Shown in pieces: positions 20,321 through 60,011 of a stretch of 64,000 nucleotides of DNA; the first letter of the stretch is position 1, and every line of letters starts with the position of its first letter. The position numbers and the translations under genes were made by a program. The notes below the pieces were generated by a model. It did no database searches, had not been told where the DNA came from, and worked only from the letters and a program-made list of their open reading frames with translations. The DNA is from Novosphingobium resinovorum (lineage in GTDB: Bacteria; Pseudomonadota; Alphaproteobacteria; Sphingomonadales; Sphingomonadaceae), in the NCBI RefSeq assembly GCF_001742225.1, contig NZ_CP017075.1:2666001-2730000 (forward strand), in the 5' to 3' direction.

Positions 20321-20407
20321 CGTCATCCCCGCGAAGGCAGGGACCCATCTGATGATCGTGCAACACGAAAATTCAGGAGATGGGTCCCTGCCTTCGCGGG
20401 AATGACT
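20321..20407. repeat. Palindromic intergenic repeat, CGTCAT-CCCGCGAAGG family, copy 1
   Basis: Two arms, beginning CGTCATCCCCGCGAAGGC and ending GCCTTCGCGGGAATGAC, are nearly perfect inverted copies of about 30 nt separated by 27 nt. The spacer includes GCAACAC and TTCAGGAG, which recur in the copy at 50102-50188. It lies between the start of the peptidase gene and the end of metK and could act as a transcription terminator for metK or as a REP-type element. Confidence 0.8.
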
Positions 20408-29918: not shown

Positions 29919-30050
29919 GAAATCCGCTGAAGCGGATTTCGCGGCACCGGCCCTCTCCCCCACCCGACCACCCAACGATAGTACCCTATGGGTGGTCGGG
30001 TGGGGGAGAGGGCCGGTGCCGCTCCGAAAATGCCCGCCCGGGCATTTTCG
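29919..30050 (+). repeat. Tripartite stem-loop element, copy 1
   Basis: Three adjacent hairpins. The first is GAAATCCGCT-GA-AGCGGATTTC (29919-29940). The second is a perfect 34-bp stem (29941-29974 with 29989-30022) closing the 14-nt loop ACGATAGTACCCTA. The third is CGAAAATGCCCG-CC-CGGGCATTTTCG (30025-30050). The same loop occurs at 39974-39987 and, inverted, at 41707-41720. It lies just after the M61 gene and could terminate its transcript, but no U-run follows the central stem. Confidence 0.9.
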
Positions 30051-30194
30051 AACAGACTCTTACCTCCGTATTCGCGCAATCATCGCAGTATCGTCCGAAA
30101 TGGCTGTTGCGACGCAATAAACGCGACGCTAAGCCCGCGCCCAACGTGTGGCCCGCCACGCAGACGAACAGTGCGAAAATAAAGAAGGACCATT

Positions 30195-35966: not shown

Positions 35967-36123
35967 GGGCGGGCTTTCGGCCCACCCCGTCCGGCTAAGC
36001 AGCAAGCTGCCAAGCCTCCCGGCCGTCCCGCAAGCGGAAGGGCGTTCTCTCTGCTCCCTCCCGTTTGCGGGAGGGCGCTCCCCTCTTCTCCCCTCCCGCT
36101 TGCGGGAGGGGCTGGGGGTGGGC
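35967..36123. repeat. Stacked palindromes, CCCGCAAGCGGGAGG family, copy 1
   Basis: Three successive short stems of the CTCCCGCTTGCGGGAGGG type occupy about 36025-36110. They are flanked by GCCCACCCCGTCC at the left and GGGGGTGGGCC at the right, which also face each other. The same arrangement recurs at 38433-38555. It lies between convergent genes and may terminate both. Confidence 0.75.
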
Positions 36124-38432: not shown

Positions 38433-38555
38433 GGCGGGTTCTGCCCACCCCGTCCGGCTAGTTCGCTGCGCTCTCAAGCCTTCCGGCCCTCCCGCAAGCG
38501 GGAGGGCTTGGTCGTTCTTCTCCCCTCCCGCTTGCGGGAGGGGTCGGGGGTGGGC
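38433..38555. repeat. Stacked palindromes, CCCGCAAGCGGGAGG family, copy 2
   Basis: Two strong stems, CCCTCCCGCAAGCGGGAGGG (38488-38507) and CCCCTCCCGCTTGCGGGAGG (about 38522-38541), are flanked by GCCCACCCCGTCCGGCTA at the left and GGGGGTGGGCC at the right, as in the copy at 35967-36123. It lies between the GST gene and scoB on the same strand. Confidence 0.78.
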
Positions 38556-39935: not shown

Positions 39936-40025
39936 AGAGGCGGCACCGGCCCGCGCCCCCACCCGGCCACCCAACGATAGTACCCTATGGGTGGCCGGGT
40001 GGGGGCGCGGGCCGGTGCCGCCTCT
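39936..40025 (+). repeat. Stem-loop element, copy 3 (central stem only)
   Basis: A perfect 38-bp stem (39936-39973 with 39988-40025) closes the 14-nt loop ACGATAGTACCCTA, in the same orientation as copy 1. Relative to copy 1 the stem has three base-pair changes, each compensated on the opposite arm. The flanking smaller hairpins of copies 1 and 2 are absent. It lies in the scoA-LysR gap, about 28 bp upstream of the scoA start. Confidence 0.9.
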
Positions 40026-41640: not shown

Positions 41641-41781
41641 GTCTGGAAAATGCGCGATTGCGCATTTTCGGTGCGGCACCGGCCCTCTCCCCCACCCGAC
41701 CACCCATAGGGTACTATCGTTGGGTGGTCGGGTGGGGGAGAGGGCCGGTGCCGCGAAATCCGCAGAAGCGGATTTCCAGAC
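41641..41781 (-). repeat. Tripartite stem-loop element, copy 2 (inverted)
   Basis: Bounded by perfect 9-bp terminal inverted repeats, GTCTGGAAA (41641-41649) and TTTCCAGAC (41773-41781). Inside are GAAAATGCGC-GATT-GCGCATTTTC (41646-41669), the 34-bp perfect central stem (41673-41706 with 41721-41754) around the inverted loop TAGGGTACTATCGT, and GAAATCCGC-AGAA-GCGGATTTC (41755-41776). The order and loop are the reverse complement of copy 1, so the element is oriented. It lies between DUF2141 and rpe, both of whose promoters must be near. Confidence 0.9.
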
Positions 41782-49948: not shown

Positions 49949-50101
49949 CGTTTTATGGGAAGTCCTGGGGCCATCGCCCCAGACCCCGATACTGTCGGCG
50001 CCGCGCGCGCAGCCGCGTTGAACAGGATTTCCAGCCTTGCGTGATTATTTGCCCAGCTTTCGACGTAGACGAATAACTCAGAAACCTGGTTAATCGCACT
50101 T

Positions 50102-50188
50102 CGTCATTCCCGCGAAAGTGGGAGCTCAACTGATGCCCGGGCAACACAAGCCGTCAGGAGATGGGTTCCCGCCTTCGCGGGAATGACG
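50102..50188. repeat. Palindromic intergenic repeat, CGTCAT-CCCGCGAAGG family, copy 2
   Basis: The left arm CGTCATTCCCGCGAAAGTGG faces the right arm CCGCCTTCGCGGGAATGACG. The spacer again contains GCAACAC and TCAGGAGATGGG, as in copy 1 at 20321-20407. It lies between dxs and a convergent small gene and could terminate both. Confidence 0.8.
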
Positions 50189-50199
50189 ATAAAGGTTGG

Positions 50200-58782: not shown

Positions 58783-59902
58783 GAAGCCCCCTGGGTCTAG
58801 CACGTGCGCCCCTGATGGCGCAGTCCCGGTTAAGACCGCCCTAAGCAATTTTGCCGAGGCGGTGGAGGGAGAGGCGCGCGCTCTCGGCTTCTGCGCTTTC
58901 GGCGTGGCTTCGGCCGCGACGGACGAGGACCGCGCGGCGCGGCTTGACGCCTGGCTGGCAGCGGGGATGCACGGCTCGATGGGCTGGATGGAGGAGCGCG
59001 CGCACCATCGCCGCAGTCCGCAGGGGCTCTGGCCCGAAGCCCGCAGCGTCATCGCGCTGGGCATGAGCTATGCCCCCGCCGCCGACCCGCTGCGACTGGC
59101 GGACGAAGGCGGGATCGGCCGGATTTCGGCGTATGCGCAAGGCGCCGATTATCACGACACGGTGAAGAAGGCGCTCAAGAACCTTGCCCGCTGGATGGTG
59201 AGCGAGGGGGACAAACGCGGGCTGGGGCCGGTCGGGGTGAAAGTCTTCACCGACACCGCGCCGGTGATGGAAAAGCCGCTCGCCGCTGCCGCAGGGCTCG
59301 GCTGGCAGGGCAAGCATACCAATGTCGTCAGCCGCGAACATGGATCATGGCTGTTCCTCGGCGAGATCTACACGACACTGGACCTGCCGCTCTCGGCCCC
59401 GGCGCGCGATCGCTGCGGATCGTGCCGGGCCTGCCAGGACGCTTGCCCGACCGATGCCTTCCCGGCGCCCTACCGCCTCGATGCGCGGCGCTGCGTCAGC
59501 TACCTCACCATCGAGCACAAGGGGCCGGTGCCCGAGGACATGCGCGAGGGGCTGGGCAACCGCATCTACGGCTGTGATGACTGCCTCGCGGTCTGCCCGT
59601 GGAACAAGTTCGCCGAGACGGCGCATACGATGAAGGCGTTCCTGCCGCGCGCGGAACTGACGGCGCCGGAGCTGGCGGATCTGCTCACGCTGGACGATGC
59701 GGGGTTTCGCAAGCTGTTCTCGGGAAGTCCGATCAAGCGGATCGGGCGGGACCGGTTCGTGCGCAACTGCCTCTATGCGGCGGGCAACAGCGGCCGGAAG
59801 GTGCTGCTGGCGCAGGTGGAGCCGCTGCTGGCGGATGCAGACGATGCCGTTGCAGATGCGGCACGATGGGCGAGAGGCAAGCTGACGTCGTCCCGGACTT
59901 GA
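58781..59902 (+). CDS. queG: Epoxyqueuosine reductase
   Basis: A 373-residue cobalamin- and iron-sulfur-dependent enzyme for the last step of queuosine in tRNA. The signature Fe-S motifs [16 protein letters not shown] and [13 protein letters not shown] are intact, as is [20 protein letters not shown]. The N-terminus is uncertain: only the ATG at 58781 precedes the conserved [14 protein letters not shown] region, and it overlaps the ABC gene start. The last codons and stop lie inside a palindromic repeat arm. Confidence 0.92.
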
Positions 59903-60005
59903 TCCGGAACCGGTGGCGGTCTTTAGGCGCGACCTCGGGTAAAGGCGCCCTGCCGACAGCAAGGCGGTTCACGGCCAGCGGTTCCGGATCAAGTCCGGGA
60001 CGACG
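59886..60005. repeat. Inverted repeat, CGTCCCGGACTTGATCCGG family
   Basis: Perfect 27-bp arms at 59886-59912 and 59979-60005, beginning CGTCGTCCCGGACTTGATCC and ending GGATCAAGTCCGGGACGACG. The left arm carries the last codons and stop of queG. The right arm ends 6 bp before the stop of the convergent flavoprotein gene. It could terminate both transcripts. Confidence 0.88.
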
Positions 60006-60011
60006 CCATTG

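Follow-up and report, generated by a model that had tools for sequence, protein, structure and literature searches.

Template switching in hairpins of rRNA leaves footprints that comprise compensatory changes, repaired arms and fully inverted loops (Monttinen and Loytynoja 2022, PMC8794818, in the part available to us). REP elements of the GTAG and CGTC families are dispersed hairpins with complementary changes in stems of 5-13 bp, as given in the accessible part of PMC3733652. Among insertion sequences (ISs), the IS1031 group targets TNA, according to the section of PMC12016507 at hand. Compensatory base changes are usually taken as the best evidence of a selected RNA structure. The bacterial repeat considered here has textbook covariation, and yet the arms and loops of its resident copies are under no clear constraint. 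Between close relatives its loop has often been inverted in situ, and this suggests that the matching of the arms is kept by errors of DNA copying across the hairpin more than by a function of RNA. The whole reading, to which we assign a probability of about 70%, is that the repeat is a dispersed non-coding mobile hairpin, rewritten in place by template switching and, for some copies in Novosphingobium, most likely moved by an IS5-type transposase acting in trans.

Hairpins of the window

The window is a stretch of 64,000 nucleotides from the genome of Novosphingobium resinovorum. As stated in the preliminary description, it contains three perfect hairpins with long stems, of 34, 38 and 34 bp; there are 14 nucleotides between the arms in each. 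The span 29919-30050 includes the large hairpin of copy 1 and the two small hairpins flanking it. The features are as follows.

29941..30022, plus strand: copy 1, perfect stem of 34 bp, arms 29941-29974 and 29989-30022, loop ACGATAGTACCCTA at 29975-29988
29919..29940, plus strand: small hairpin left of copy 1, GAAATCCGC..GCGGATTTC, read from the sequence
30025..30050, plus strand: small hairpin right of copy 1, CGAAAATGCCCG..CGGGCATTTTCG, read from the sequence
30053..30062, plus strand: copy 1, right end with CAGACTC followed by TTA, resembling an IS5/IS1031-type end and TNA; a clear left end is absent
39936..40025, plus strand: copy 2, perfect stem of 38 bp, arms 39936-39973 and 39988-40025, loop at 39974-39987
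41673..41754, minus strand: copy 3, perfect stem of 34 bp, arms 41673-41706 and 41721-41754, minus-strand loop at 41707-41720
41646..41669, minus strand: small hairpin left of copy 3, GAAAATGCGC..GCGCATTTTC, read from the sequence
41755..41776, minus strand: small hairpin right of copy 3, GAAATCCGC..GCGGATTTC, read from the sequence

The small hairpins flanking copies 1 and 3 are AT-rich. Copy 2 has neither small hairpins nor IS-type ends and sits between two divergent genes. The observation that one loop is shared by the three copies and inverted in the third was correct: ACGATAGTACCCTA has three exact matches in the window, one of them on the minus strand (shuffled mean 0.06 at up to two mismatches). 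Copies 1 and 3 share the same arms, and copy 2 differs from them at three pairs, with both arms changed each time (two T-A/G-C differences and one A-T/G-C). Thus three compensated changes of exactly the types described do exist, but they had been assigned to copies 1 and 3, and the odd one out is copy 2.

The contrast drawn earlier with REP palindromes holds for stem length, as the stems here have 34-38 bp and an outer extension that varies between copies. Membership in the RAYT-linked REP elements, tried by the stem length of 5-13 bp in the consulted part of PMC3733652, was rejected on the same ground. Further long inverted repeats, of other sequences and 84-92% complementary, lie at 20322-20406, 50101-50189 and 59883-60008; presumably, these are the simpler palindromes that had been meant. 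The window also contains CCCTCCC..GGGAGGG..GGGGGTGGG arrays at 36056-36122 and 38487-38554, which are G-quadruplex-type motifs by pattern and look, by eye, like the intrastrand triplex motifs treated in the available part of PMC4666352.

Distribution of the family and its IS5-type ends

The hairpins of the window are copies of a dispersed DNA hairpin of many Alphaproteobacteria. The DNA search found 15 copies in the window's genome. A covariance model (E-value 0.01) found the family in 162 of 195 Novosphingobium genomes and in 124 of the 149 genomes of the genus that are at least 90% complete, the window's own being included in both counts. In the class the distribution is patchy (32 of 387 genomes, covariance model, E-value 1e-5). 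Among the matches listed from a scan with a one-arm pattern, hairpins also occur in Sphingopyxis, Sphingomonas, Erythrobacter, Acetobacteraceae, Roseospira and a Kiloniellales bin. Thus the search of the genome and its relatives, proposed in the preliminary description, excludes an origin of the three copies by one recent duplication without further copies elsewhere. The hairpin was found in two of 72,556 plasmid records, and no phage copies were found. No paper naming this repeat was found, as judged from titles and abstract openings among the matches listed.

Contrary to the preliminary description, the loop is not invariant: it is exact in only five of the 15 copies, and other copies have, e.g., ACGGTAGTATCCTG or CGGAAGTATACTTGA. 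Nor is the element oriented. Both types of small hairpin adjoin 12 of the 15 copies, and relative to them the loop points one way in eight copies and the opposite way in four (both counts by eye); the orientation varies between orthologs as well. At five loci (L006, L207, L220, L255, L427) other hairpin sequences are inserted within one arm of the core, and the arms may act as insertion targets.

The family is probably mobile. In 299 distinct elements, GAGNCNGTTTG-type ends next to TNA were found by our pattern at both ends in 20, at one end in 20 and at neither in 259. The same TNA stands at both ends of 17 of the 20 two-ended copies, each ortholog being counted separately; 1000 shuffles give 6.0 on average and at most 12. 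The genome G125 contains an IS of 905 bp (L466, L476) with the ends GAGTCTGTTTGGAAAATC and TTA and TAA duplications, encoding a 274-aa transposase of the IS5 family (NF033580, PF01609, PF13340). The ends GAGTCTGTTTGGAAAATG of elements in the window's genome, in those copies that have ends, match those of this IS, and L466 appears to belong to the IS1031 group. A related end pair, GAG.C.GTTTCGAAA with TAA and TGA, was found at L464 and L475. The scan for terminal repeats around DUF4096 genes yields many chance pairs, and a close match to the element ends was seen only at L466/L476. Thus two features of MITEs are present, terminal repeats in common with an autonomous element of the IS5 family and a 3-bp TNA duplication. 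In the window, IS-type ends are reduced to the right end of copy 1 and degenerate ends of copy 3, with none at copy 2; copies 1 and 3 retain remnants of such ends. The window's own genome yielded no such IS: none of the 9 DUF4096 loci examined there, of 13, has these ends, and its nine end-like places are all at hairpin copies or solo forms.

One probable insertion can be followed between genomes: at L338 in G005 the unit has TAA on both sides, with the right end duplicated, and L426 in G125 is the empty site. The site of L331/L439 differs by more than an insertion. The core of copy 2 is absent from the same site in the 13 relatives listed, including G029, the site not being a clean insertion. 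The site of copy 1, which in G029 holds another hairpin, is not clean either.

Compensatory changes and loop orientation

The covariance model and covariation test proposed earlier were applied to 18 aligned copies, 17 of them distinct, with the one identical row counted once. The covariation is strong. In this alignment 99.0% of 577 cells are paired; 8 of the 34 pairs are changed on both sides (36 cells), with one-sided changes in three cells and six cells unpaired. The covariation score was reached in none of 500 shuffles, and the number of further pair types in 91 of 500. In a looser collection, 116 of 213 elements have no mismatch in the 31-bp core. The copies of G005 have 0 to 12 stem mismatches, 3.9 on average (ungapped). 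Counts of G-U versus A-C mismatches as a test of RNA against DNA were dropped, because one arm had been fixed by the pattern and the hairpin itself is symmetric.

The genomes G005 and G125 are about 99% alike and have 93 rows each over both strands, that is, about 47 copies. From the 38 and 39 copies fetched, 33 orthologous pairs were formed, and two more were added by collinearity. The loop orientation in these 35 pairs is the same in 28, flipped in place in six and unclear in one (L321/L365), about one flip per six orthologs at a divergence of about 1%. Four flips are exact reverse complements of the loop (L044/L330, L323/L324, L346/L360, L317/L427), although in L317/L427 one arm has an uncorrected insertion in one genome. 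The flipped loops of L351/L318 and L378/L374 also differ by a few bases, and one partner of each is much better paired. In L351/L318 one genome has a degenerate left arm, and in the other genome this arm pairs perfectly with the right one. A pair of L378/L374 that is T-A in one partner is A-T in the other, and bases mismatched in one are paired in its counterpart; this is the single candidate for a compensated change together with loop inversion. Among the alignments listed, the flanks of flip pairs are collinear on both sides and their direction is unchanged. All flips are read without polarity. The small flanking hairpins, with short loops of 3-8 nt, do not flip: in 34 pairs (L321/L365 left out) 56 of the 68 sides have one and 12 have none, 51 being identical, 5 changed and 0 flipped.

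Five of the 16 loci fetched from the genome G070 have orthologs among those of G005 and G125. L499 is an exact seventh flip relative to L358 of G125, with flanks 92.8% alike, and L513 has the same orientation as its ortholog. The other three shared sites (L504, L506, L512) hold a different version of the core, and thus exchange between copies may occur too. In the Kiloniellales bin, the paralogs L214 and L224 have opposite loops within like flanks.

In the 28 same-orientation pairs, substitutions number 22/1897 in the arms (0.012 per site), 8/420 in the loop (0.019 per site) and 30/2295 in the adjacent DNA (0.013 per site); the outer-flank rate, 277/20751, is too high because of two pairs (L329/L328, L356/L385). 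Thus the rates in arms and loop are close to that of the neighbouring DNA, and selection for pairing is undetectable in resident copies. Among these pairs, 13 have a G005 stem with 0-2 mismatches; summed over them, substitutions are fewer in the arms (6/878) than in the DNA beside them (11/1066), which may reflect either weak constraint or correction. The arm changes between orthologs are mostly one-sided and uncorrected. Changes of both sides in situ are few, L378/L374 and the Sphingomonas orthologs L210/L274, where two pairs have changed, and thus correction is slow.

At L320/L438 and L355/L433 the palindrome was deleted at short direct repeats. The same has happened in the window's genome (G000), where the solo forms L188 (C1:1924638) and L192 (C1:1198933) have both small hairpins and a core of a few bases. 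Such deletions speak for formation of the hairpin in the cell.

Probable template switching and its alternatives

The preliminary description had left the choice between selection and a copying mechanism. Copying is the better supported of the two, given the in-place flips and the rates of change in same-orientation copies. The covariation reported there is real, but copying from arm to arm most likely produced it. Some Novosphingobium copies are the core of a MITE-like unit of about 160 bp, in which the 34-bp core hairpin has a small hairpin on either side and IS5/IS1031-type ends outside these. To judge by the ends, the target duplications and the empty site, an IS5-family transposase would most likely move this unit in trans into TNA sites, often near stop codons. 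The resident core would then fold when single-stranded in replication, and the polymerase could switch template between the arms. One arm would be rewritten from the other, giving perfect pairing and simultaneous changes in both arms; if the copied stretch included the loop, the loop would be inverted. Copies left unrewritten would decay, or the palindrome would be lost between short direct repeats. The flipped outcome itself is observed, and from it and the compensated changes we infer the template switching and its replication step.

One alternative is a dedicated enzyme, a recombinase or hairpin-specific transposase with the inner stem and loop as its target, which would invert the loop and disperse the core. 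Class-wide, the copies listed retain the inner stem; their outer stems vary, many of them being paired all the same, and the small hairpins and ends differ. Only L399 of these copies has an end repeat of 10 bp, with CCGTTTGAGA, and the remainder have at most 7 bp. A MITE is expected to keep its ends, and thus the kept inner stem is the strongest hint at something beyond a simple MITE. The inner stem has the G-tract pattern GGG N GG NN GGG N GGGGG N G N GGG, where separators on the G-rich arm are almost never G. In 132 distinct perfect 31-bp stems, 130 of which fit the G-quadruplex motif, C occurs in 0 of 924 cells at the seven variable positions of the C-rich arm. However, this count is partly conditioned by the collecting pattern, which fixed the C-tracts (up to three substitutions) and demanded A or G at position 7; the remaining six free positions give 0/792, in cells that are not independent, as the elements are related. 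Outside these stems there are two exceptions with C at position 28, L418 and the second element of L244. The inner stem and loop might form an ancient, independent module of the Alphaproteobacteria with a G-tract code of its own, moved and flipped by a dedicated activity, with the IS5-type ends as a local vehicle. This is unlikely, and slightly more so given the conditioned counts and the two exceptions. The enzyme could also explain why copy 2 lacks IS-type ends at a site empty in relatives, and why the core is another version at three of the five sites shared with G070. On the other hand, inspection by eye of the ten protein clusters that recur most often around 167 loci showed no transposase gene, and arms 14-17 nt apart would leave little room for ordinary synapsis. 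We regard such an enzyme as improbable.

An RNA element under selection is likewise improbable; here the hairpin would serve in mRNA as a terminator, as a stabiliser or as an RNase III site, and selection would maintain the pairing. All 15 copies of the window's genome are intergenic (simple gene caller). In favour of this reading, a stop codon lies within 60 bp of 11 of them by the same caller; both plasmid places inspected, of six, are between convergent genes; and the best-paired copies changed slightly less in the arms than beside them. However, nine copies are in tandem, three in convergent and three in divergent gaps, compared with 32, 10 and 9 of all gaps in the window, and a general role as a terminator of convergent genes is unsupported. 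The rates in resident copies argue against such selection, flips would alter the RNA loop, and no Rfam family matches the window at the gathering score except one tRNA. The loop both changes and flips, and its proposed role as a recognition site for a protein or RNA is unsupported for resident copies. At five loci from different genera (L045, L209, L212, L264, L422) the core lies in the spacer between rpsL and rpsG, the genes being named from translations. Its pairing there is partly decayed; the str operon may have co-opted it for a role in the mRNA.

An artefact, in which assemblers set the loop at random between perfect inverted arms, is very unlikely: 34-bp arms would make short-word assembly graphs ambiguous for the loop, some draft contigs end within the hairpin and one scaffold gap falls at the loop, but the G005 chromosome equals the complete record NZ_CP029761.1 in length, G125 is in three contigs, reads above about 120 nt would span the hairpin, and some flips are accompanied by arm changes.

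If reads confirm the flips, template switching on a mobile hairpin would provide a natural, countable assay of this process in bacteria and a caution for RNA discovery based on covariation. The unit resembles MITEs of the IS5 family and IS1031 group (TNA rule in PMC12016507 and MITE review PMC10969869, each in the part available) in its GAGNCNGTTTG(GAAA) ends and the TNA duplications on 20 copies. It differs in that conservation reaches further in the core than at the ends, which most of the collected copies lack by our pattern. With the RNA hairpins of PMC8794818, as far as the accessible text describes them, it shares inversion of the loop with the arms kept, seen here between orthologs, and probably compensatory changes made in single events and arm repair. 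In those hairpins, however, the inverted loops typically have 4 nt, and some 7-8 nt, whereas here they have 14-17 nt, and the flips, in 6 of 35 orthologous pairs, affect a dispersed intergenic repeat.
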